Of a DNA stretch of 30,332 nucleotides, positions 5,791 to 29,395 are shown in pieces. A program made the position numbers and the translations under genes. The stretch lies in the IMG/VR virus record IMGVR_UViG_3300010413_000120, positions 1 through 30,332 of that record; one strand, written 5' to 3'. Below the pieces are notes generated by a model. It saw nothing but the letters and a program-made list of their open reading frames with translations, had not been told where the DNA came from and ran no database searches. Each line of letters opens with the position of its first letter. Position 1 is the first letter of the stretch. This stretch comes from a virus.

Positions 5791-7064
5791 ACTATAGCTG
5801 CTGTAATATATCCATTAATTGTACAAGCAAATTGATCTAATCCAGTAAGATCATCTTGGATAATAACTTGAAATTCACCATTTTCAGTAGCATCTAATTC
5901 ATAGATAATACCTCCGACATCTGGTATTACTTTCTTAGTTCTAAGACCATATTGACCAGCAGGTGCTTTAGATGCATATGTAAGATCAAATCCTTGTTCT
6001 ATGAATCCAAGATTATTTGTGATTAATGCAGTATTTTTTGTATAACCATCTTTTAATCTAAATACCACACCATTTGTTAGTGCAGTTAACCCTCCAAATA
6101 GGCCATCATCCATTGCACTAGCATCTAGCATAGTACAGTTAATTGAATGTATATGAATATTTGATGTAGTTAATGCTCTAAATGAAAATATTTGTGGTGT
6201 TACTGATCCATTTACATTTAAGTTCCAAGAGCCTGTTTCTAATATTGCTGATGATGTAAATATATTGTCTATTGGTGATGCAAAAGTAATTGATGTTCCT
6301 GTTGTACTTATTACTATGCTTTGGAATATATTTACTCCCTCGAATATAGTTATAGCATCGCCAGCAGATACACCAGTAGTATCATCTACATTTATTGTGT
6401 AGTCATCTACTGCTGTAGAAGAAGTAATTGTAGGGGTAGCTGCTGCTTGATACAAGTAATAGTTTACAGGAATATCTGCTTTATATTCAGGAGAAACATT
6501 AAGGCTACCATTTCTTGAAAGGATATTCTCAGAATCGCCTGTTATCTCATTTACTGATTGTAGTCTAGCATTTACATTAATAGATTTAAAAATAATGATA
6601 TTAGAAAGGCCAACTTCATCAGCAGTATGAAATTCTATTATTACCCCATTTAACTTCTGAGGCGACATATCAATTACAAGGCTATTTCTTTTGGTACTAT
6701 CATTCTCATACTCATTATTTGTAAATCTTACTACTTCACCAGAACCAAGTGCTTTAACAACAATATTAGAAAAAGACTTAGTAAGGTCATTACAACCAAA
6801 GCCTATTGATGTTGATTGTAATGTTCTCTTAAACCATATTTTTATTGACTTAGGATTAGTAGCTGAAGCATCACTATTTACAGTTTCAAGGTTATCAAAA
6901 TAATCTGTAATTGAACCAGAGAAACCCCCATTATCAGAGTTAGCTACATCTATATCCTTAACATATACAGAATCATTATCTGTTGATATAGGATATTGTG
7001 AATCAATATTTTCAAAAGCATCTGAGAAAACATCTTCTAACGTTATTTGTCTAATTATGCTCAT
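5787..7064 (-). CDS. Beta-rich virion structural protein, function unknown
   Basis: This 425-residue protein is rich in Ser, Thr, Asn, Ile and Val, with alternating hydrophobic strands and few charges, as expected for a beta-structured virion part. Its N-terminal region contains acidic turns (YPISTDNDSVYVKDIDVANS). A central segment around residues 200-290 (PTITSSTAVDDYTINVDDTT, GVSAGDAITIF) looks like a beta-sandwich or Ig-like domain of the kind found in adhesins and fibres. Its start codon shares one base with the upstream stop (TAATG). Lying between the gp10 homologue and the ejection genes, it could be a tail accessory or head fibre. I do not recognise a named family. Confidence 0.55.
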   Translation of the reverse strand: MSIIRQITLEDVFSDAFENIDSQYPISTDNDSVYVKDIDVANSDNGGFSGSITDYFDNLETVNSDASATNPKSIKIWFKRTLQSTSIGFGCNDLTKSFSNIVVKALGSGEVVRFTNNEYENDSTKRNSLVIDMSPQKLNGVIIEFHTADEVGLSNIIIFKSINVNARLQSVNEITGDSENILSRNGSLNVSPEYKADIPVNYYLYQAAATPTITSSTAVDDYTINVDDTTGVSAGDAITIFEGVNIFQSIVISTTGTSITFASPIDNIFTSSAILETGSWNLNVNGSVTPQIFSFRALTTSNIHIHSINCTMLDASAMDDGLFGGLTALTNGVVFRLKDGYTKNTALITNNLGFIEQGFDLTYASKAPAGQYGLRTKKVIPDVGGIIYELDATENGEFQVIIQDDLTGLDQFACTINGYITAAIV

Positions 7065-7501
7065 TAATGCCAGCCTTGTGTTGATTCAAAACAGATATCT
7101 ATTACCTCAGCATCATATAATGCAAAAGGTACAGTTTCTCCAAATATAGCTTCTGAAGTTGTTGAGGATACGGTTACATTATTATTTGATCGTCCTGTAT
7201 TAATAATCCTATGCTGATAGCCACTTACTCCTTCTGGTAGCTGGATATTAATTGCCCCAAAATTAGTATCACAAAACATTACTTCACTATCAAATTCTGG
7301 AGTATATGGTGAAGATGTAACTAATACTGTTTCTTTTATTATTCCTGACTTTGTATCTACTTCGTCTGCAAGTAATGTAAGATTATTAAATATGTTTAGA
7401 TAATCCTCAATCATGGCATCTGTCCAATCAGGATGCATTGTCCTAAGCTCAATAGCACTAAGGATTAATCCCCTTAATAATCGTGCTGTGTTATTAGCCA
7501 T
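7064..7501 (-). CDS. Small tail-region protein, tail needle or knob candidate
   Basis: This is a 145-residue protein directly after the gp10 homologue, the place of the tail needle gene 26 in P22. Residues about 1-55 are predicted helical (LLRGLILSAIELRTMHPDW, DYLNIFNNLTLLADEVD), and residues about 60-145 are short strands ending in a Trp-His pair. A helical stem followed by a small beta knob is the general plan of needle tips, but the stem is far shorter than the trimeric coiled coil of P22 gp26 (233 residues). It overlaps the gp10 gene by 8 nt. It could equally be a small fibre or an assembly factor. The needle role is a positional inference only. Confidence 0.42.
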   Translation of the reverse strand: MANNTARLLRGLILSAIELRTMHPDWTDAMIEDYLNIFNNLTLLADEVDTKSGIIKETVLVTSSPYTPEFDSEVMFCDTNFGAINIQLPEGVSGYQHRIINTGRSNNNVTVSSTTSEAIFGETVPFALYDAEVIDICFESTQGWH

Positions 7502-8903
7502 AAGTTACCTTGAAGTTAGAGAATGCCATCCTCGATTTAGTAGCTCCACGCATCTTAAACCCAACATAATCACCGACATAACCAAGGCGGCGAATAGTAA
7601 AACGCTGGTGATAGTCAAGCGGCTGACCATAAGTTTGAAACCACTCTTTGCCATATGTTAAGCCATCATATGTTAAAGATAATGCTACTGTTGCGTCTTC
7701 ATCTACAGTATGACCAGGAATTGTATCTAATTCTATTTCGTCAATAGATAAAGTTTCTAATTTAAGAAATGGGGTATATAAAAGCCATTCTACTTTTTCT
7801 CCAAATTGAGTAAATATAGAATTATCTAATTTTCCTATCTTATCTGAAGTTTTGTTCCCATATACCCATGCACCTAAATTAGCATCAAATATACCATTAA
7901 TTGCTTTATATGGAGTATCGCCTTCAATATCTGTTTTAAGAATTGTCCACGCTGCTTCTATTCCAAAAGATGATGCTATAGTTTCATTAAAACATAAAGT
8001 TTCTTCTGGTAAATGTACAAGAATAAAAGTAGTATCATCCTCCATTCTACTTTCCATTCTCATATCTGATAATTCTGGTTCAGTGTATTTAGATATTATT
8101 TTATCTATTTCTCTTGTAGATATTTTTTGTGATGATCCTACTCCGAGCATAAATACACTAATAGAATCATTCTTTCTCCCCCCAGTAAAATACCAAGAAG
8201 TTCCAGATTCACATTTAGCGTGAGTAGCTACAATACCTATTTTCTGTGCTCTTGTTTCTACTCTTTGAAAAGAAAAGTTATCTGTTGCTATATCTACAAA
8301 ATATTCAATTGTATATCTACCAAATACAATTACTTTATTGTCTTGAGTTTTGCCAACGCCAAGTGAAGGATCTGGCATAAATTCAGCAGTAGCAAATTTA
8401 AGTGGATCTATACTAGTTTCATCATCAATATCTGTGTGGTAAATATATTCTCCATCAGTAAGAAAATAATACCCATCTATCCATACACCATCAATTGGGC
8501 TACCTAAATCAGAATCAGTTATCTGAGAGAATCCAGTATCTGGTGAGTAAAGAAACATGTTACCATCAGCAATAATAGCCTGAGTATTAAAGCTATAAGG
8601 CATTGCTACTTGAGAAGATCCTGCAATATCTCCTAATGAAGTTACTGTACCACTAGAGGATATTTTTATTAATTTATCATTAGACACTCTAAATTGAGTT
8701 TTTTGTCTTTCATTATAAATAGCTCCCCTATCAATACCATACCCAGTGGTAAAACTAGAAATGCCAGGGTAGCATAGCATATAACCTTTAGAACCAAGAA
8801 TGTCTCTTTTAACAGCATACATATTAACAGGCAATGAATCCCTGTAATCTGTTAGACTAGAGACTTTATCACCTTTAATTAAATTAACTTGCGCTGTCGG
8901 CAT
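7494..8903 (-). CDS. Packaged-DNA stabilisation (tail hub) protein, P22 gp10-like
   Basis: This 469-residue protein matches P22 gp10 (472 residues) along its length. Shared features in order: an N-terminal MP-x-QxxxxKG start with SLPVNMYAVK; SNDKLIKISSSG and GDIAGSSQVAMP; TIEYF in the middle; a run like STREIDKIISKYTEPEL followed by FILVHLPEETL; and a C-terminal RRLGYVGDYVGFKMRG. gp10 forms a hexameric ring under the gp4 ring, closes the portal channel after packaging and carries the needle and spikes. It starts 20 nt before the end of the gp4-like gene, which indicates coupled synthesis of interacting parts. Confidence 0.93.
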   Translation of the reverse strand: MPTAQVNLIKGDKVSSLTDYRDSLPVNMYAVKRDILGSKGYMLCYPGISSFTTGYGIDRGAIYNERQKTQFRVSNDKLIKISSSGTVTSLGDIAGSSQVAMPYSFNTQAIIADGNMFLYSPDTGFSQITDSDLGSPIDGVWIDGYYFLTDGEYIYHTDIDDETSIDPLKFATAEFMPDPSLGVGKTQDNKVIVFGRYTIEYFVDIATDNFSFQRVETRAQKIGIVATHAKCESGTSWYFTGGRKNDSISVFMLGVGSSQKISTREIDKIISKYTEPELSDMRMESRMEDDTTFILVHLPEETLCFNETIASSFGIEAAWTILKTDIEGDTPYKAINGIFDANLGAWVYGNKTSDKIGKLDNSIFTQFGEKVEWLLYTPFLKLETLSIDEIELDTIPGHTVDEDATVALSLTYDGLTYGKEWFQTYGQPLDYHQRFTIRRLGYVGDYVGFKMRGATKSRMAFSNFKVTYG

Positions 8904-17439: not shown

Positions 17440-17616
17440 TTATTTGCTTCCAGGTTTCTTCATTCTTTTATTGACACCTTCTGATCCAAAGAGTTCTTTC
17501 TCGAATGCCTCGTACTTCATTCTACGTTTATTCAAAATCTTTCCAGCTTTAGCAGCTTCACCAGATCCAAGCATTTTAGGATTAGGTCTTTTCATTTTTT
17601 GTTTATCAGTTGCCAT
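17440..17616 (-). CDS. Small basic protein coupled to terminase small subunit
   Basis: This 58-residue, strongly basic protein starts MATDKQKMKRPNPKMLGSGE, continues AAKAGKILNKRRMKYEAFEK and ends NKRMKKPGSK. Its ATG shares a base with the stop of terS (TAATG), so the two are probably made together. I recognise no family. Position and charge make a packaging accessory or DNA-binding role plausible, but this is inference. The 45 bp between its stop and the next gene are AT-rich. Confidence 0.6.
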   Translation of the reverse strand: MATDKQKMKRPNPKMLGSGEAAKAGKILNKRRMKYEAFEKELFGSEGVNKRMKKPGSK

Positions 17617-18212
17617 TATTTTTCCTCTTCGATAAGTTTATCTTGTTCAATAAGTATAGTTTCTTTAGTCGTGGGATCAACTACTTCAATCTTCCATTCA
17701 TGTTTAATAGCTCCACCATCAGCTCCAGACATAGTGAAGGAACGGTCATCCCTCCATCCAAAGTTCTTTAAGGCAAATATATCCCCAGCTTTACCATTAG
17801 CTTTAAGACCTAATTCATAAGAATGCTCTACGAGAGTTCTAGCTCTTACTATTAGCTCTTTATAGTCTTCTCTTTCTTCATATTGACCAAGAACTTGTCT
17901 ACTTGTACCAAGAGATAAAGCTACTCCAGTAAGAGTCCATTCTTCAATTGGAGTATTATCAAAGTAATCTTCTAGGGCATCTGCTAGGATTTGGGGAGTA
18001 GGAAATTTCTTGGGTAATTTAGAAAATCTTCTAGATAGTTCTTTCCCCCATTCTGATTTTCTTTCTGTTTCTTTCTCTTTCTTTGCTTCTTTAATTTTCT
18101 CTTCCTTCTTTATAGCATTAGCTTTTCTTTGCTTAGTTTCCCTTATATTAGGGCAAGCATTAGGATATTTTGTACGTTTATATGTACGTTTCTTCTTAGG
18201 AGTTTCTTCCAT
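17616..18212 (-). CDS. terS: Terminase small subunit (DNA recognition)
   Basis: This is a 198-residue protein with a Lys/Arg-rich N-terminus (EETPKKKRTYKRTKYPNACP, residues 2-21) and a coiled, highly charged stretch to about residue 60. A helix-turn-helix-like core follows (WTLTGVALSLGTSRQVLGQY, about residues 93-112), then a region typical of gp3-type terminase small subunits (ANGKAGDIFALKNFGWRDD). It forms a ring that binds the packaging start site and regulates TerL. No clear ribosome site precedes the ATG (TTTCATAGTC), so initiation may be weak, or this transcript may be processed from the tRNA-bearing precursor. It heads the packaging genes, downstream of three tRNA loci. Confidence 0.85.
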   Translation of the reverse strand: MEETPKKKRTYKRTKYPNACPNIRETKQRKANAIKKEEKIKEAKKEKETERKSEWGKELSRRFSKLPKKFPTPQILADALEDYFDNTPIEEWTLTGVALSLGTSRQVLGQYEEREDYKELIVRARTLVEHSYELGLKANGKAGDIFALKNFGWRDDRSFTMSGADGGAIKHEWKIEVVDPTTKETILIEQDKLIEEEK

Positions 18213-18285: not shown

Positions 18286-18372
18286 TGGAGGCAAGCAAAG
18301 GAGTCGAACCCTCAAGTTTTACCTTGGCTCTGGTTTTCAAGACCAGCTGATATCCACATATCGCTACTTGCC
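18286..18372 (-). tRNA. tRNA-Ser (anticodon UGA)
   Basis: The molecule is 87 nt including an encoded CCA. The acceptor stem is GGCAAGT / GCTTGCC with one G-U pair. The anticodon arm CTGGT-CTTGAAA-ACCAG gives anticodon TGA. A long variable arm (class II, as serine tRNAs have) is followed by a T arm GAGGG-TTCGACT-CCTTT. The D stem has three base pairs, as is usual for serine tRNAs. The discriminator base is U, which is unusual for serine. It could supply UCA-reading tRNA in an AT-rich phage. Confidence 0.88.
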
Positions 18373-18748: not shown

Positions 18749-18790
18749 ATCTAAGTGGTTAATATTGGTAATTGAACTAAAATACAAAAA

Positions 18791-18873
18791 GCTCTAATTG
18801 GGTATATATCAATGTAATTACTATAAATTTATGTATATTCAGCTAAAAATAGGCTAGCTGTAATTGGGTATAT
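18791..18873. repeat. Direct repeat pair GCT[C/G]TAATTGGGTATAT
   Basis: The 17-bp sequence GCTCTAATTGGGTATAT (18791-18807) recurs as GCTGTAATTGGGTATAT (18857-18873), 66 bp apart and one base different. The pair lies just upstream of the zinc-ribbon gene. Read leftward it gives TTGATATA-ACCCAATTA-like elements, so the copies could be promoter parts or operators. No matching -10 at good spacing was found. Confidence 0.6.
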
Positions 18874-18921
18874 CAAAAAATCATGACCAAACCAAAACTC
18901 CCCGCCTACCCCTCGGTTAAG

Positions 18922-19026
18922 CATTTAATTAATTAGTTATATTCTAATTTAATTAATTAGTTGAATACTTTAGCAGATCCCTGGCTATTTCATCATTTAA
19001 TTATATTCTAATTTAATTGGATACTT
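18922..19026. repeat. AT-rich imperfect direct repeat (possible unwinding region)
   Basis: The block CATTTAATT...TATATTCTAATTTAATT...ATACTT appears at 18922-18970 and again, shortened, at 18994-19026. Each is followed by GATC and CCTGG. Inside the first copy AATTAG and CTAATT form a small dyad. The stretch is almost pure A/T, and the iteron array begins 136 bp downstream, an arrangement typical of replication origins with a DNA-unwinding element. Confidence 0.6.
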
Positions 19027-19082
19027 AAACTGGATCTCCTGGTAATGGCTAGCTAATCACGAGGATATCATTGAGAAGCCAC

Positions 19083-19158
19083 TGTAATGCCCTTAGATTC
19101 AATGGGGATATTCTGCTGATATATTCCTATGCATTATCACAATCATTCAATGAGAAGC
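19083..19158. repeat. Structured element A, diverged inverted relative of 22831-22903
   Basis: This stretch aligns to the reverse complement of 22831-22903. Shared blocks in order are TGTAATG, CC.TAGA.TCAA, TGCTGATA, TATGC.TTA.CA..ATC.TT.AATG and GCCAT-like ends; 19 of 25 positions match in the last long block. It can form TAATGC / GCATTA around an inner GGGATAT / ATATTCC hairpin. Direct repeats of TGAGAAGCC flank it on both sides (19072 and 19150). Function unknown. Confidence 0.5.
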
Positions 19159-19161
19159 CAT

Positions 19162-19297
19162 ACATCATAAAATATGATACATCATAAAATATGATACATC
19201 ATAAAATATGATACATCATAAAATATGATACATCATAAAATATGATACATCATAAAATATGATACATCATAAAATATGATACATCATAAAATATGAT
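19162..19297. repeat. Eight perfect 17-bp iterons, each an internal dyad
   Basis: The unit ACATCATAAAATATGAT occurs eight times head to tail with no variation, from 19162 to 19297. Each unit contains ATCATA-AAA-TATGAT, a 6-bp dyad around AAA, so each could bind one protein dimer. A 17-bp period is about 1.6 helical turns, so successive sites point in different directions unless the DNA bends. Such arrays are typical of initiator-binding origins or of cooperative operators. Single related sites occur near 20244 and 20465. No gene in the window encodes an obvious binding partner. Confidence 0.92.
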
Positions 19298-19299
19298 AG

Positions 19300-19371
19300 T
19301 GTGTCAAAAACAACACAGTATACTCTAGAGTATTGTAATAATGTCACATAAAGTGTGTCAAAAATGACACA
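19300..19371. promoter_or_regulatory. Paired TGTGTCA dyads flanking a 14-bp palindrome
   Basis: A perfect dyad TGTGTCA-AAAA-TGACACA lies at 19354-19371. A degenerate copy TGTGTCA-AAAA-CAACACA lies at 19300-19317, 54 bp away and directly after the iterons. Between them is the perfect palindrome ATACTCTAGAGTAT at 19320-19333. Their form and spacing suit operators for a dimeric regulator distinct from the iteron-binding protein. They sit about 180 bp before the rightward promoter. Confidence 0.65.
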
Positions 19372-19379
19372 TATTTTAG

Positions 19380-19397
19380 TGCAACCAAATTGTTGCA
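19380..19397. promoter_or_regulatory. TGCAAC-CAAATT-GTTGCA dyad
   Basis: Perfect 6-bp arms flank CAAATT. It could be another operator or a small hairpin. From here to 19548 the sequence is AT-rich with long T runs (19501-19540) and no further clear element. Confidence 0.4.
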
Positions 19398-19548
19398 GTG
19401 TATCCAATCAGCTACAGTCTTAATCATTCTGGTAAGTTTACTTCGTATCTTATACAGGAATCATGCCAGTATGCTCTATTTAATCTTTTGCTTATACTCT
19501 TTTTTCTTCTTTTTAAACTTTTTTTTAATTATTTTTCAAAAAATGCTA

Positions 19549-19577
19549 TTGACAAGTTTTTAATTACCTCTTATAAA
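19549..19577 (+). promoter_or_regulatory. Rightward sigma70 promoter for the early arm
   Basis: A perfect -35 TTGACA (19549-19554) is followed after exactly 17 bp by TATAAA (19572-19577), predicting a start near 19584. The leader of about 50 nt contains a small GGCT-GATT-AGCC hairpin and ends in the GAGAGGGA ribosome site of the first early gene. T-rich DNA just upstream (19501-19540) could act as an UP element. Confidence 0.88.
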
Positions 19578-19635
19578 GAAGGGACAAGGCTGATTAGCCA
19601 CTTACAAACATTAACTTAAACACGAGAGGGACAAC

Positions 19636-20001
19636 ATGGCAACTGCTAACAAAATGATCGAAAACGCAAACAAAAGAATAGCCAAGCTGGTAGAGCAAAG
19701 AGCAAATGAGTTCAATAACACTGATGAAACAAAATTCTATTTCCTTCACCGTAAGATTAAAAGAATGTCTCAAGAGTTAAGTTCTTTTATTAATTGGTGT
19801 TATTCTCATAACATCGACATGGACAAAGAACTTGAATCAGTTACAAGTGGGTATGGTTATACTAGGTACGAAACAATATCAGGGGAGTTAAGGAAAAATA
19901 TCTTCTGTTTCAATAGCTACCATGTATTTAAAAAGAATGTTTACGGTACTGTTTATGGAATAGCCAATAATCTTAAAGATGCGGTACATTTGTTTACCTG
20001 A
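19636..20001 (+). CDS. First early protein, unknown function
   Basis: This is a 121-residue protein with a helical, basic N-terminal half (ANKMIENANKRIAKLVEQRA, then LHRKIKRMSQELSSFINW) likely to form a coiled coil, and a Tyr/Phe-rich C-terminal half (YGYTRYETISGELRKNIFC, YGTVYGIANNLKDAVHLF). GAGAGGGA lies 6 nt before the ATG. It is the first gene behind the strong rightward promoter, the usual place for host-takeover or anti-defence proteins. I recognise no family. A consensus leftward promoter 320 bp downstream would produce RNA antisense to it. Confidence 0.7.
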   Translation: MATANKMIENANKRIAKLVEQRANEFNNTDETKFYFLHRKIKRMSQELSSFINWCYSHNIDMDKELESVTSGYGYTRYETISGELRKNIFCFNSYHVFKKNVYGTVYGIANNLKDAVHLFT

Positions 20002-20004
20002 TAA

Positions 20005-20024
20005 ATAGTCCTAAGCACGACTAT
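20005..20024. terminator. Hairpin between facing transcripts
   Basis: ATAGTC-CTAAGCAC-GACTAT, a perfect 6-bp stem, lies directly after the first early gene and, on the other strand, about 20 nt beyond the micro-ORF stop. A short TTTAT tract follows it on the minus strand. It could weakly terminate either transcript. Confidence 0.4.
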
Positions 20025-20045
20025 AAACTGCTTTAACTTTAGTAT

Positions 20046-20108
20046 CTAATGATCATAACCAAGGAGAATGAATCCAAGGAGTATTACAGTAATCAATGTC
20101 ATAAGCAT
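20046..20108 (-). CDS. Hydrophobic 20-residue micro-ORF, type I toxin-like candidate
   Basis: The frame reads MLMTLITVILL then GFILLGYDH: a single hydrophobic helix with a short polar end. GAGG stands 9 nt before the ATG. It lies about 210 nt downstream of the start expected from the consensus leftward promoter at 20325-20353. Length and pattern resemble Ibs-type and other type I toxins, which are tiny membrane peptides on long-leader mRNAs opposed by antisense RNA. Here read-through RNA from the early operon would be the antisense. No similar peptide is verified and the frame is short enough to arise by chance, so treat this as a hypothesis. The rest of 20025-20563 holds no convincing plus-strand gene. 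Confidence 0.35.
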   Translation of the reverse strand: MLMTLITVILLGFILLGYDH

Positions 20109-20243
20109 GGTAAATTACCTCAGCAATTTATAGTAAATTTATCTATATATTCTTTTGTACCAGAGAGAATGATCCTGGGAACTCAGGATAGAGTTATCCT
20201 TAAATCTAGTTATGTTATTTACTGTTTCATATCTTCTTTCTAT

Positions 20244-20260
20244 ATCATATTCTATGATGT
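20244..20260. promoter_or_regulatory. Isolated iteron copy, inverted
   Basis: The reverse complement is ACATCATAGAATATGAT, 16 of 17 bases identical to the iteron unit, with arms intact and only the central base changed. It lies in the predicted leader of the leftward promoter, about 60 bp downstream of its start. The same protein that binds the array should be able to bind here. Confidence 0.7.
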
Positions 20261-20262
20261 AT

Positions 20263-20297
20263 CTTTCTTCTTTTGTTTTTGAAGAAGAAGAAGAAAG
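20263..20297. terminator. Long A/T and purine-pyrimidine hairpin
   Basis: CTTTCTTCTT (20263-20272) and AAGAAGAAAG (20288-20297) form a perfect 10-bp stem; the loop contains a T run. It lies between the leftward promoter start and the inverted iteron. It could attenuate leftward transcription or end rightward transcripts, though the T-rich part is in the loop rather than after the stem. Confidence 0.45.
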
Positions 20298-20324
20298 AAA
20301 ACATTCTTTTGATTTAATAACAGT

Positions 20325-20353
20325 ATTATAACATATTGTAATTACTTTGTCAA
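20325..20353 (-). promoter_or_regulatory. Consensus leftward sigma70 promoter
   Basis: On the minus strand TTGACA (20353-20348), 17 bp, then TATAAT (20330-20325): both hexamers and the spacing match consensus exactly. The start would be near 20318, facing the rightward promoter at 19549 head-on. The only features it reads before the array are the inverted iteron, the micro-ORF and the antisense of the first early gene; it might also continue to the late arm. Confidence 0.85.
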
Positions 20354-23580: not shown

Positions 23581-24393
23581 ATGAAAACTTATACAAAAGA
23601 AGAATTAAATAACATTATCACATTACATATAGAATGGATAAAAGGTAATTCAAAAGAAAATTGTGCAAATTTAAGTTATGCAAATTTAATTGGTACAAAT
23701 TTAAGTTATGCAAATTTAATTTATGCAAATTTAAGTTATACAAATTTAAGAAATGCAAATTTAAGTTATGCAAATTTAATTGGTACAAATTTAAGTTATG
23801 CAGATTTAAGTGATGTAGATTTAAGTGATGTAGATTTAAGTGATGCAAATTTAAGTTATACAAATTTAAGAAATGCAAATTTAAATTATGCAAATTTAAG
23901 ATATGCAGATTTAAGTTATGCAGATTTAAGTGATGTAGATTTAAGTGATGCAAATTTAAGTTATACAAATTTAAGTTATACAAATTTAAGAAATGCAAAT
24001 TTAAGAAATGCAAATTTAAATCATGCAAATTTAAGATATGCAGATTTAAATTTTGTTAAATACAATTATTTAACAGCTGGATTTAATTTATCTTGCCCAG
24101 AAGAAGGGGAATTTATTGGATTTAAGAAATCTTTCAATGGTGCCATAGTTAAATTATTAATATGTAAAGATGCAAAAAGATCCTCTGCTACAACTAGAAA
24201 ATGTAGAGCATCAAAAGCTAAAGTATTAGAGATAAGTGGTGGATTAGAGAAAGCATACTCAAAATATGATAGTTCTTTCATATACGAAGTAGGTAAAACA
24301 ATAGAAGTAAAAGATTTTGATGAAGATAGATGGAATGAATGCTCTACAGGTATTCATTTCTTTTTAACCAGAAAAGAAGCGGAGGAATATTAA
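23581..24393 (+). CDS. Pentapeptide-repeat protein with DUF5758-like C-terminal domain
   Basis: This is a 270-residue protein. After a short helical start (TYTKEELNNIITLHIEWIKG), residues 29-158 are 26 uninterrupted pentapeptides of type A/T/V-N/D-L-x-x (ANLSY, TNLRN, ADLSD and so on), which form a right-handed square beta-helix. Residues about 165-270 carry FNGAIVKLLICKDAKRSSAT, TIEVKDFDEDRWNECSTGIH and a final FFLTRKEAEEY, matching the DUF5758 domain often fused to phage pentapeptide repeats. Some pentapeptide proteins mimic DNA and block gyrase (Qnr, MfpA), but most have no known role and the DUF5758 fusion is uncharacterised. It is the first gene after the promoter at 23516. Confidence 0.88.
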   Translation: MKTYTKEELNNIITLHIEWIKGNSKENCANLSYANLIGTNLSYANLIYANLSYTNLRNANLSYANLIGTNLSYADLSDVDLSDVDLSDANLSYTNLRNANLNYANLRYADLSYADLSDVDLSDANLSYTNLSYTNLRNANLRNANLNHANLRYADLNFVKYNYLTAGFNLSCPEEGEFIGFKKSFNGAIVKLLICKDAKRSSATTRKCRASKAKVLEISGGLEKAYSKYDSSFIYEVGKTIEVKDFDEDRWNECSTGIHFFLTRKEAEEY

Positions 24394-24394
24394 A

Positions 24395-24868
24395 ATGGAT
24401 GAATATGAAAAAGTAGAACAAGGTATAATTGAATGGAATAAATCAAGAGGTAATACTATATTTGATCTTGATACTGAAATGAAAATGTTATTGGAAGAAG
24501 CTCAGGAGTACTTCCATTCTAGTACACTTTTTGATAGAATAGATGCATATGTAGATTTTCAATTTGTGGCTATTGGTACAAAATGGAAACATGGAGAAAA
24601 TAAAGTAGTAGAGGATATTATTTTTGATTTTATTGACAATACGGGTTTTATAATTGGGTGTGATTTAGAGAGTATATTTGAAAACCTAAATTTTCCAATG
24701 AGGCATTATTTTAATTTCATTAATGATGGATTGGAAATTGTATTGAAGTATAACAACAAAAAATCATCAATGAAAGACAAGAATGGTAAGATTGTAAAGC
24801 CTGTTAATTTTGTTGGTCCCGAAAAGGAATTGGAAAAGTTATTTAATGAATATATGGACAAATGTTAA
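24395..24868 (+). CDS. MazG-like nucleotide pyrophosphohydrolase
   Basis: This 157-residue all-helical protein has the acidic E-E-x2-E and D-x2-D motifs of the MazG/dUTPase-like superfamily (LLEEAQEYFHSSTLFDRIDA, then YVDFQFVAIGTKW) and the late 'N/D-G-L-E-I-V ... KNGKIVKPVNFVGPE' segment typical of phage MazG-type enzymes. These hydrolyse non-canonical or regulatory nucleoside triphosphates with magnesium, adjusting the dNTP or alarmone pool during replication. GGAGGAA lies 9 nt before the ATG. It directly precedes the primase-helicase. Confidence 0.78.
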   Translation: MDEYEKVEQGIIEWNKSRGNTIFDLDTEMKMLLEEAQEYFHSSTLFDRIDAYVDFQFVAIGTKWKHGENKVVEDIIFDFIDNTGFIIGCDLESIFENLNFPMRHYFNFINDGLEIVLKYNNKKSSMKDKNGKIVKPVNFVGPEKELEKLFNEYMDKC

Positions 24869-24869
24869 T

Positions 24870-26654
24870 ATGGATGAAATACAGAAAATAAAGAATGCTT
24901 TGTCATACATTGATCCAGACGTAAGTTATTCAGAATGGTTATCTATTGGCATGGCATTGCATTCTTGGGATGAGGATATAGGTTTTATAGAATGGGACTT
25001 ATGGTCAAAAAATGGTAGTAAATATGAATGGAGATACATAAAAGATAAGTGGAATAGTTTTAGATCAAATGGAGGAATTACTTTAAATACTTTATTCCAT
25101 ATGGCAAAAGAAAATGGATGGAATAAAGAAGGGGAAGATGAAGAAACGATGCAAAATACATATGATCCCTCACAAATATGTGATCCTAGTGTATTACCTT
25201 TCATTGCATTAACTAAACGTAAAATATCAGCAGAAGTATGTAGATTATATGGCGTACATACTTCTGTTATGGAAGCAGATGGTAAAACATTAGATAAAAG
25301 TTACTTTCCTTATAAAAAGAATGGAGTGGTTACTGGATACCATGTAAGAAATCATAATCCAAAAGATAAGAGGGACAAAATTAATGCTGATATTGGAACT
25401 GGTAGTGGCAATCTTGATCTATTTGGTAAGGAAGTAGCATCTAGATCCAGAAGGAAAAGAATATTTATCACTGAAGGGAGAATAGATTGTTTATCATTAG
25501 CAGAAACCTTTAAAGAGCATACCAAGAAAGATTTTAAAGGATTTGATGGCATAGTATCAATAAATAATGGAAGTAGTTCAGCATTGAAAGACTGCCTTAA
25601 TAACAGAGAATTTATTGAGAGTTTCCAGGAAGTAATTTTAGTATTTGATGCAGATGAAGATGGGAGAAAAGCAGCATCAAAAGTATTAAAATCTTTCCCC
25701 AGATTTAAAGTAGCAAAGTTACCAGAAGGTCTTGATTGCAATGAGATGAGATTGCAAGGTAGAGACAAGGAATTATATGATCTGGTAATGTGGAAAGCAG
25801 AAAATGTAAGACAGGGTGAATCAATAAAGATAGATGATAAATTTATTGAGAAAGCCTTAGAAAAACCTAAGATGGGTTTATCAACACCTTGGCCTAGTGT
25901 TGATAAAAAGATTTTTGGTATTAGGCCACATACAATATGGATTGTTGGTGCTGCACCAAAGATAGGTAAGAGTGAGCATAAGAACCAACTAATCCAACAC
26001 TTATCATTTTATCATAAAAGACCTGTTGGAGTGTATGATTTAGAAGTCCATCCAGTAATAACAGCCAAACAAATAATTTCAAAACATATAGGAGTAAACC
26101 TAATAAGGCCAGATGCAGATTATAATAATGAAGATTTAATAAATAGCTTGAAAGAATTATCTAAAACTGGTATTATGTTTTATGATAGAGGAGCATCAAG
26201 AGAATGGAGTGATATTAGGATATGTATTGAAGAGCAACATATATTAGATGGTGTATGTGAATTTTTTCTTGATCCTTTAACTGCATTAATATCGAGATAT
26301 ACAGCAGCAGAAGCTAATGATAAACTTAATGAGATAATGACAGATGCAGCAGATTTGGTATTTAAATACCCAATAACCTTATTTATGTATTCACATGTAA
26401 ATAATAAACCTAAAGGGTCTCTGCCTCACGAAAGAGGAGGAAAAGTATTAAGCAGTGAATTTACAGGAAGTAGAGCATTAGAGAAGTGGTCCCATTTTGG
26501 GTTTGGAATAAGCAGAAATAGATCAGATGACTGTGAGCCAGAAAATGAAAACTTTTCAGAAATATCTCTATTGTATTCTAGGGAACCAGTCACTGGTTAT
26601 AAATTAAGTAGACTATATTATGATAATGAAACAACAAAATATTTGGAGGAATAA
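24870..26654 (+). CDS. Primase-helicase, T7 gp4-like with PriCT_2-like N-terminus
   Basis: This is a 594-residue protein; the ATG at 24870 directly follows the previous stop. Residues 1-85 (SYSEWLSIGMALHSW, WDLWSKNGSKYEWRYIKDKW) resemble a PriCT_2 domain and take the place of the zinc-binding domain of T7 gp4; no zinc Cys set is seen. A primase core follows, with TOPRIM residues E202 (ITEG) and D260/D262 (VFDADEDG). The RecA-like helicase domain has Walker A GAAPKIGKS (360-368), Walker B CEFFLDP (463-469) and the later MYSHVNN and TGSRALEKWSHFGFGI motifs. It would unwind the fork and lay primers for the polymerase encoded 0.9 kb downstream. Confidence 0.92.
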   Translation: MDEIQKIKNALSYIDPDVSYSEWLSIGMALHSWDEDIGFIEWDLWSKNGSKYEWRYIKDKWNSFRSNGGITLNTLFHMAKENGWNKEGEDEETMQNTYDPSQICDPSVLPFIALTKRKISAEVCRLYGVHTSVMEADGKTLDKSYFPYKKNGVVTGYHVRNHNPKDKRDKINADIGTGSGNLDLFGKEVASRSRRKRIFITEGRIDCLSLAETFKEHTKKDFKGFDGIVSINNGSSSALKDCLNNREFIESFQEVILVFDADEDGRKAASKVLKSFPRFKVAKLPEGLDCNEMRLQGRDKELYDLVMWKAENVRQGESIKIDDKFIEKALEKPKMGLSTPWPSVDKKIFGIRPHTIWIVGAAPKIGKSEHKNQLIQHLSFYHKRPVGVYDLEVHPVITAKQIISKHIGVNLIRPDADYNNEDLINSLKELSKTGIMFYDRGASREWSDIRICIEEQHILDGVCEFFLDPLTALISRYTAAEANDKLNEIMTDAADLVFKYPITLFMYSHVNNKPKGSLPHERGGKVLSSEFTGSRALEKWSHFGFGISRNRSDDCEPENENFSEISLLYSREPVTGYKLSRLYYDNETTKYLEE

Positions 26655-26962: not shown

Positions 26963-27546
26963 TGAGAGTTTTAATAGGCTGTGAAGAAAATGGAAAGATA
27001 AGAGATGCATTTAAAGCAAAAGGAGCAGATGCTTGGAGTTGTGATTTGCTTGACACAAGGAGGCCAGGAAATCACTACCAATGTGACATAATAGATATAG
27101 TAGTATTAAATTGGGATTTAATTATACTGCATCCGGATTGCACTAAGTTAGCTGTAAGTGGTAATAGATGGTATGGCAAAGGTAAAGAAAGATATAATGA
27201 AAGGTTGGAGGCAATGAAATGGACTGAAGAATTATGGGAAAAGGCTAAACATTATTGTAATCATGTTGTACTAGAAAATCCAATTGGTGTTCTTGGTAAA
27301 ACATTACTTGGGAAACCCTCACAGTATATTCACCCTTGGGAATATGGGCATGAAGAAACAAAAAAGACTTGCTTATGGCTACATAATGTTCCAAAATTAA
27401 AACCAACAAATGTTGTAGAGCCAAAAGAAAACAGAATATGGAAAATGCCACCATCAAAAGATAGAAAAAGGTTAAGAAGTGAAACTTATGATGGATGGGC
27501 AAAAGCAATGGCGGATCAATGGTATGGAATACATATTCGATGCTGA
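26962..27546 (+). CDS. Methyltransferase-like protein of the phage cytosine-MTase-related family
   Basis: This is a 194-residue protein with a SAM-type Rossmann start (MRVLIGCEENGKIRDAFKAK, then GADAWSCDLLD), LILHPDCTKLAVSGNRWY, a VVLENPIGV strand and a C-terminal ETKKTCLWLHNVPKLKPTN...MPPSKDRKRLRSETYDG. The pattern matches a phage group often annotated as DNA (cytosine-5) methyltransferase-like. At the place where the group usually shows P-P-C, this protein has P58-D59-C60; the Cys is kept. It lacks the target-recognition region of full methylases (over 300 residues). It could methylate DNA or a nucleotide, or be inactive. Overlaps the polymerase gene by 23 nt. Confidence 0.72.
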   Translation: MRVLIGCEENGKIRDAFKAKGADAWSCDLLDTRRPGNHYQCDIIDIVVLNWDLIILHPDCTKLAVSGNRWYGKGKERYNERLEAMKWTEELWEKAKHYCNHVVLENPIGVLGKTLLGKPSQYIHPWEYGHEETKKTCLWLHNVPKLKPTNVVEPKENRIWKMPPSKDRKRLRSETYDGWAKAMADQWYGIHIRC

Positions 27547-29395
27547 ATGGAATTATCCACAAAATACTAAGATACTTGTTTTATCAGTAGGTACAGTAGA
27601 AAAAGGTATACTTGATTCTACAAATGATTATGATAGGATGAGAAAGTTTTTTACTAATAAAGATATAACAATAGTTGGCCATAATATATGGAGGGCAGAT
27701 AAACCTATTATAGAGAAGTTGCTTAATATTAAGATTGAATGTAAGATGATTGATACTCTACCACTTTCTTGGTGTATCGAGTTTAATAAAAAGAAACATG
27801 GACTTGAACAATGGGGAGAAGAATTTGGTATAGAGAAACCTAATATTGAAGATTGGAATAATCTTGGATATAAGAAGTATCAACATAGATGTGAGCATGA
27901 TGTAAAGATAAACATCGAACTGTGGAAAAGGTTAAAAGCTAAACTAAATAAACTGTACGAAGGAGATTATCAAAGACTAATAGATTATCTTAATTTCAAG
28001 ATGTATTGTGCAATGCTTCAAGAGAAGTCTCGATGGAAGTTGGATGTTGATAAATGCACTAAAGGTCTTGAGGAATTAACCAAAGAAAAGGAGGAGAAGA
28101 CAAAGATACTTGAATCAGTAATGCCTAAAGTACCAATTAAAGTAAAGAAGACTAAACCAAAGAAACCATTTAAACAAGATGGTACATGGAGTGCAACAGG
28201 TGAGAAGTGGTTTAATCTTCTTAAAGAACAAGATTTACCAGAAGACTATGATGGTGTAATAGAAGTAATCAATGGCTATAAAGAACCTAATCCTGGCAGT
28301 CATGATCAGATAAAAGATTGGTTATGCAGCCTTGGATGGAAACCACAGACATTTAAATTTGTAAGAAATAAAGAGACAAACGAAGTTAAACAGATCCCTC
28401 AGATTAACTTACCACATGGGCAAGGGATCTGCCATAGTATTAAGAAGCTGTATAGCAAAGAACCTAATCTTGAACTACTAGATGGACTATCAATCATAAC
28501 CCATCGAATAACACTACTAGATGGCTTTCTAAGGGGTGTTGACAAAGAAGGGTATGTAACAGCTAAGATACAGGGAATAACCAATACAATGAGGTTTAAG
28601 CACGCTGTATGTGTTAATCTCCCTGGAGTAGATAAAGCCTATGGAAAATTGATTAGGGGTTGTTTGATAGCATCAGATGATGAGCATGAATTGTGCGGAT
28701 CTGACCAGGCACAACTTGAGGATCGCACTAAGCAGCACTATCTCTGGCAATTTGATAAGGATTATGTTATGGAGATGTGCGAGCCAGGATATGATCCACA
28801 TATTGATATTGCAGTACAAGCAGGATTTCTTACCAAAGAGCAAGAAGAAAGGCATAAGACAGGAAACTTTTTAAATGAGCAGGATAAGAAAGAAATAAAG
28901 GAGGGAAGAAAGAGAGCAAAGCCTGTTAACTATGGGGCTGTCTACAATCAACAACCAAAGAGTTTGGCAAGAGATACAGGGATGCCTTTAAAACAAGCGA
29001 AAGAGCTATATGATGTATACTGGAAGCGTAATTGGGCAGTCAAGGCAGTAGCTAGACAGACAAAGACAAAGAAAGAATTTGGCAGTATGTGGTTGTATAA
29101 TCCTGTAAGTAAATTGTGGTACAGTTTGAGAAGTGAAGGAGATAAGTTTTCTACATTGAACCAAGGAACAGGTGCCTATTGTTTTGATACTTGGCTTAAG
29201 CATGTATTAAGTAAAAGGGAACAACTAACAGCTCAGTTTCATGATGAAGGAGTTTGGAATGTAAAGAAAGGATACAGAAAAGAAGTTGAACAATTATTGA
29301 GATGGGCAATTAAAGAAACAAATAAAGAGTTAAGATTGAATAGGGAGTTGGATATAGACGTACAATTCGATGATAACTACGCAGGAATACACTAA
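27524..29395 (+). CDS. DNA polymerase, family A, with 3'-5' exonuclease
   Basis: This 623-residue protein starts at the ATG at 27524, inside the previous gene; earlier starts lack support. The exonuclease domain has DxE (D6-A-E8), D59 in VGHNIWRADKP and D126 in CEHDVKIN. The polymerase domain has motif A GSDQAQLEDR (D394), the O-helix pattern R462-x3-K466-x3-Y470-x3-Y474, and motif C FHDE (H573-D574-E575). Y470 corresponds to T7 Tyr526, the residue linked to weak discrimination against dideoxynucleotides. It is shorter than T7 polymerase (704). At exo III the usual Tyr four residues before the Asp is Arg (R122). It is the genome replicase. Confidence 0.95.
   Translation: MEYIFDAEWNYPQNTKILVLSVGTVEKGILDSTNDYDRMRKFFTNKDITIVGHNIWRADKPIIEKLLNIKIECKMIDTLPLSWCIEFNKKKHGLEQWGEEFGIEKPNIEDWNNLGYKKYQHRCEHDVKINIELWKRLKAKLNKLYEGDYQRLIDYLNFKMYCAMLQEKSRWKLDVDKCTKGLEELTKEKEEKTKILESVMPKVPIKVKKTKPKKPFKQDGTWSATGEKWFNLLKEQDLPEDYDGVIEVINGYKEPNPGSHDQIKDWLCSLGWKPQTFKFVRNKETNEVKQIPQINLPHGQGICHSIKKLYSKEPNLELLDGLSIITHRITLLDGFLRGVDKEGYVTAKIQGITNTMRFKHAVCVNLPGVDKAYGKLIRGCLIASDDEHELCGSDQAQLEDRTKQHYLWQFDKDYVMEMCEPGYDPHIDIAVQAGFLTKEQEERHKTGNFLNEQDKKEIKEGRKRAKPVNYGAVYNQQPKSLARDTGMPLKQAKELYDVYWKRNWAVKAVARQTKTKKEFGSMWLYNPVSKLWYSLRSEGDKFSTLNQGTGAYCFDTWLKHVLSKREQLTAQFHDEGVWNVKKGYRKEVEQLLRWAIKETNKELRLNRELDIDVQFDDNYAGIH

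Follow-up and report, generated by a model that had tools for sequence, protein, structure and literature searches.

At the replication origin of phage lambda, dimers of the O protein bind to inverted repeats of 19 bp, and an AT-rich stretch of 40 bp is thereby opened with the help of transcription (PMC5043065). The RepA_N iterons of staphylococcal plasmids and of the V. cholerae satellite PLE are semi-palindromic direct repeats that close on a poly-A tract (PMC7145576). Here we describe a tandem array from an uncultured P22-like phage whose unit, a pair of inverted arms around an A-tract, has the design of both. The array may bear on the largely open question of how replication starts in phages with a T7-like helicase-primase and apparently without an RNA polymerase of their own.

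The window analysed is a viral contig of 30,332 nucleotides (30.3 kb) and is probably incomplete; by analogy with the related phage G010, about 10-15 kb would be missing. Its leftward arm encodes a P22-like tailspike, coat, portal, TerL, TerS and two tRNAs. TerS, the terminase small subunit, belongs to the P22 gp3 family and is encoded near the start of this arm (17616-18212, minus strand). An Rfam scan returned tRNAs only, and the tRNA-Ser(tga) gene at 18286-18372 also scored as tRNA-Sec, below threshold. The rightward arm begins with small genes and continues with a T7 gp4-like primase/helicase of PriCT_2, Toprim and DnaB_C domains (24864-26654, plus strand; best PDB matches T7 gp4) and with a PolA-like family A DNA polymerase (27479-29395, plus strand). 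PriCT_2 forms the N-terminus of the Toprim-DnaB helicase; the relative of this helicase in the phage G016 has no PriCT_2 and carries a cysteine-rich N-terminus instead. At 23581-24393, a 15-bp unit in 25.7 tandem copies encodes the repeats of a pentapeptide-repeat protein, possibly of the DNA-mimic type, that carries DUF5758 at its C-terminus. The first early gene, e1 (19636-20001, plus strand), is placed between the array and its lone extra copy and encodes 121 amino acids of no family. We infer that e1 is a candidate DNA-binding protein; its fold model was too poor for use (mean pLDDT 46). Pfam scans of the proteins in this incomplete fragment returned no initiator family (O-like, RepA_N or other) and no helix-turn-helix or ribbon-helix-helix regulator family, in agreement with the original prediction that neither an initiator nor a repressor is recognisable in the window. 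Likewise, no partition or lysogeny gene was recognised and no phage RNA polymerase was seen in the fragment.

The two arms diverge from a non-coding junction of 0.85 kb (18788-19635), and the array lies within it at 19162-19297 (plus strand). It consists of eight exact head-to-tail copies of ACATCATAAAATATGAT at a pitch of 17 bp and with 17.6% GC, and Tandem Repeats Finder reported 8.2 copies at 19160-19298 with a match of 100%. The eight unchanged copies had been predicted, as had the dyad ATCATA-AAA-TATGAT, which is present in each unit and makes up 15 bp of it, followed by AC. The joins between the units create a second dyad, TATGAT-AC-ATCATA, so that half-sites alternate every 8-9 bp along the array. 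The 122 consecutive matches at lag 17 correspond to a log10 P of about -68 under the base composition. When the sequence was shuffled with its dinucleotides preserved, matches to the unit with up to three mismatches averaged 0.55, and nine were reached in 0 of 100 shuffles. With k = 127, as in common metagenome assembly settings, an assembler would collapse a longer array with these flanks to the shortest version that still reaches 127 bp, and this version measures 139 bp. Since the observed array length is also 139 bp, the eight copies may be a minimum set by the assembly floor and are to be read as at least eight.

By nearest-neighbour energies, the array is the least stable duplex among the 150-bp stretches of the window, with several other stretches near it. 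The array and its flanks are very AT-rich, yet they are equalled by other stretches of the window; a clear-cut AT peak was found only in the related phage G010. As single strands the arrays of dyads fold well (z of -5.5 for DNA and -4.0 for RNA), as expected of any such array. In the leftward RNA the loop would be UUU in the array and GAA in the lone extra copy described below. Recognition as DNA is therefore preferred over an RNA-hairpin function, which we rejected. Hairpin promoters of the N4 type have 17 bp and a 3-nt loop; they were set aside as well, because the stems are weak and a giant virion RNA polymerase was not seen.

Outside the array the unit occurs only once, in reverse orientation at 20243-20263 (minus strand), as GATACATCATAGAATATGATA, with one mismatch in 21 positions (20/21). 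About 0.02 dyads with perfect arms are expected by chance, and this lone copy exceeds that expectation. Its arms are intact and the divergence is confined to one position in the centre. All sites are thus found at one locus (8+1 within 1.1 kb); the array is a real feature, specific to that locus. The unit is also private to this genome among the collections searched: neither a relaxed two-dyad pattern nor one of three dyads with shorter arms had a match in 2.9 million viral contigs, and BLAST of the unit against phage and plasmid records returned nothing. Searches for close relatives returned none with e1 and one distant match with TerS. A scan of a genome collection gave two-dyad pairs only, and four of the six lie in Bacteroides-group records (AATCATAASTTATGATT, pitch about 21-22 bp) and were judged unrelated. 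These intergenic AATCATAASTTATGATT clusters (L126 at 7097, L128 at 1003, L130 at 5790) have a pitch of 21 bp, and the one in L128 is near a gene that looks HU-like.

The junction contains further dyads and promoter-like sites, the latter called as matches to the sigma-70 consensus and not as measured starts. PL1 (TTGACA-18-TACAAT, 11/12) lies at 19332-19361 on the minus strand. A perfect dyad, TGTGTCA-AAAA-TGACACA, at 19354-19371 overlaps its -35 element, and the perfect palindrome ATACTCTAGAGTAT at 19320-19333 covers its -10 and start region. An imperfect second copy of the TGTGTCA dyad is found at 19300-19317, 2 bp off the array. PR (TTGACA-17-TATAAA, 11/12; 19549-19577, plus strand) would drive the early arm. 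PL2 (20325-20353, minus strand) is a perfect match, TTGACA-17-TATAAT with an extended -10 (12/12), and points back through early genes and the array. The array starts about 30 bp downstream of PL1, about 35 bp past the start expected for it, and the lone copy lies about 65 bp downstream of the leftward promoter at 20353, at about +67 from the start expected there, so that both are placed 30-70 bp downstream of a consensus match. At a threshold of 9/12, promoter-like sites in the region showed no excess over shuffles. The same sites had been said to occur near promoters; one extra copy about 65 bp past PL2 was found and no others, so this claim comes down to that one site. The leftward stretch 20150-20353 has the perfect sigma-70 promoter and no substantial leftward open reading frame behind it. 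Its RNA is predicted to fold into a branched hairpin in which the lone dyad forms one of the arms, and might act as an antisense transcript or as a small regulatory RNA. A T-rich tract of about 85% AT at 19476-19565 is a candidate unwinding element. The AT-rich direct repeats expected at 18922-19026 are real and were placed at 18923-19029 (ATTTAATTAATTAGTTATATTCTAATTTAATT...). No near-consensus DnaA box was present in the junction.

We tentatively favour the reading that the array forms the central part of an iteron-type origin or control locus that is bound by a phage dimer, and we infer the following steps. A phage-encoded dimer, for which e1 or a gene beyond the fragment is a candidate, would bind each 15-bp dyad, and eight contiguous dimers would build up a nucleoprotein complex and put the very AT-rich DNA under strain. 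The array itself or the T-rich tract at 19476-19565 would then open and allow the gp4-like primase-helicase to load. As at the lambda origin, the opening could be assisted by outward transcription from PR and PL1. At the lone site, 1 kb away, the same protein might influence PL2 or contact the array by looping. The cumulative GC skew of the window has its minimum at 19750, at the junction, and in G010 the minimum at 7016 lies within about 0.4 kb of the dyads. In the phage G001 two minima are near-equal, the first close to the junction and the second at 23.9 kb. The skew analysis suggested with the original prediction placed the minimum of the 30.3-kb fragment at the junction, but gene direction flips there too and the skew cannot be separated from it.

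The closest structural relative, G001 (TerL 61%, portal 58% and coat 64% identical), carries an unrelated tandem array of 61-bp units at 19815-20046 in the same junction, and the gene directly after it encodes a helix-turn-helix protein. The second array-bearing relative, G010, is circular with 43.5 kb, and its TerL and TerS are 51% and 37% identical to those of the window. It contains nine sites of the dyad ATGAATG-N-CATTCAT with up to two mismatches from ATGAATGNCATTCAT, all of them within its divergent junction of 1.2 kb and none elsewhere in the 43.5 kb. Shuffled junctions are expected to contain 0-3 sites each, at the looser limit of three mismatches. Four of the sites follow each other in exact 18-bp steps, two more are 18 bp apart and three are spaced by 54 and 36 bp. 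The clusters lie on both sides of the junction, and the order is the dyad pair at 7580-7612, the AT peak, a promoter-like site, a gene for 67 amino acids, an inverted repeat and four more dyads. The pair directly abuts the AT peak of the genome, which reaches 92% over 200 bp, whereas the next peak is 75% and the genome 56% AT. The fold model of the 67-residue protein (mean pLDDT 59) was not used. At 7380-7490 of G010 (locus L140), an element of about 105 bp has a perfect 17-bp inverted repeat, CGTGATTCCGATTCAAC, at its ends and partly decayed dyads at 18-bp spacing throughout its interior. Distant relatives have this kind of array at the equivalent position, built from different sequences: of the conservation that had been proposed as a check, the unit itself is absent from the collections searched and the junction position is shared. 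Because G010 keeps nine diverged and still dyadic junction sites, its layout points to long-term selection for multiple sites.

An unbiased scan of the related loci for dyad clusters found junction clusters only in the window, G010 and G001; two further clusters were both in coding sequence (L103 and the pentapeptide gene of the window). Among 52 gaps of at least 400 bp, excess repeats were found in 4 of 14 divergent gaps and in 2 of 38 others, a modest excess. The divergent junction of G016, whose helicase and PolA are related to those of the window (49% and 46%), contains no array. Syntenic relatives without the array had been named beforehand as the finding that would speak against an origin, and only this distant, mosaic relative is of that kind.

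The origin that had been proposed from the repeats is therefore favoured by the skew minimum, the G010 layout and the lambda-O-like design. The T7-like replisome counts against it, as does G016 with a related helicase and PolA and no array. The lack of a recognised initiator and of a DnaA box and the unphased 17-bp pitch also count against it. Among 34 records, the PriCT_2 primase domain was found only in the three array-bearing phages (3/3). In an independent set of 71 PriCT_2 loci, 0 had a dyad cluster within 10 kb. The association failed prospectively and is therefore lineage-bound or due to chance, and we rejected PriCT_2 as the reader of the dyads. A broader proposal is that in the P22-like lineage the junction dyad combs with 17-18-bp steps are origins read by a small initiator together with a T7-like or PriCT_2 replisome, and that their specificity switches completely between phages while position and architecture stay. 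We regard this as rather unlikely.

It is possible, though we give it somewhat less weight than an origin, that the array is an operator array without a role in replication, where a phage repressor or activator dimer coats the array and the lone site. With the same reserve, leftward (structural) transcription would be blocked early and released later, for example when the protein is titrated by replicated copies. The array and the lone site follow PL1 and PL2, which among the leftward promoter-like sites of the region are the two best, two other perfect dyads overlie PL1, and the lone copy keeps the arms and not the centre, as is expected for recognition of DNA by a protein. The dyad clusters on both sides of the G010 junction and the helix-turn-helix gene right after the G001 array fit here as well. 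However, for an operator a row of eight identical copies is a high number, the promoters are calls from the consensus, no regulator gene was found in the window, and this reading leaves the AT peak next to the G010 dyads unexplained. The regulator array considered in the original prediction hence stands as one of two leading readings, and the two are not mutually exclusive.

We consider it quite unlikely that one operator or chance dyad was recently expanded by slippage and that its multiplicity has no function. The perfect identity of all copies and the absence of the unit from every other collection searched would agree with such an event. Array turnover is seen in L062 and L063, which are near-identical at terS and carry 10-bp GAGATACAGA arrays upstream of it that differ between them (L062 240-390, L063 870-965). 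Slippage would not readily account for the nine diverged, still dyadic sites of G010, largely in 18-bp steps and at the same junction, or for a lone copy that has diverged at one centre position only.

A packaging (pac or cos) site upstream of terS, read by the small terminase, is more improbable still. Repeats upstream of terS do recur in the terminase lineage, as the 61-bp units of G001 and the GAGATACAGA units of L062 and L063, with a turnover of GAGATACAGA copies between the latter two. The TerS of the window, however, belongs to the P22 gp3 family, whose pac lies within gene 3. In addition, 1 kb of sequence with two tRNAs separates the array from terS, the lone copy is on the early side, and perfect dyads are atypical of pac. 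Least probable is that the array serves as the partition site (centromere) in a plasmid-like prophage stage, where a ribbon-helix-helix or similar protein would occupy the half-sites that alternate every 8-9 bp. Autoregulated partition systems likewise have repeats close to promoters, but no partition or lysogeny gene was recognised in the incomplete record.

If the array is an origin, a 136-bp element together with one small gene would be a testable iteron replicon in a phage of this type, and dyad arrays that are conserved in position and private in sequence would offer a simple way to find origins in phages that have not been cultured. As an operator comb, the array would instead be a switch of unusual density that selects between early and structural transcription.

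Compared with known systems, the locus shares several 15-17-bp dyads at divergent promoters with lambda OL/OR and with stoperators. It differs from these in copy number and perfect identity, in that no repressor was found and in that the sites are not dispersed over the genome. With the T7 primary origin, a promoter plus an AT-rich region, it has in common the relatives of the helicase-primase and PolA, promoter-like sites and an AT-rich junction, whereas no phage RNA polymerase was seen in the window fragment. To our knowledge, the T7 origin has no iterons and needs none. Iteron plasmids such as P1, R6K and RK2 resemble the locus in their direct-repeat array, a distant extra copy and an AT-rich neighbourhood. 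Their iterons bind monomers and are helically phased (spacing about 21-22 bp), whereas the unit described here is a dyad at a pitch of 17 bp, about 1.6 helical turns, and out of phase. RepA_N iterons are similar in their non-coding location and in inverted repeats that close on a poly-A tract (PMC7145576), but no RepA_N protein was found in the window. The lambda origin also has tandem dyad units of similar size (19 bp) round an A-tract and an early promoter nearby (PMC5043065, PMC7466680). Its iterons adjoin AT-rich DNA; the flanks of the array are very AT-rich too, but no more so than some other stretches of the window. The lambda origin is located inside the initiator gene O and has four non-identical iterons, whereas in the window eight identical units follow each other without gaps between the divergent arms, an O-like gene was not found and the replisome is T7-like. 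In G010, the dyads and the adjoining AT peak follow the plan of the lambda origin, with iterons plus an opening region.
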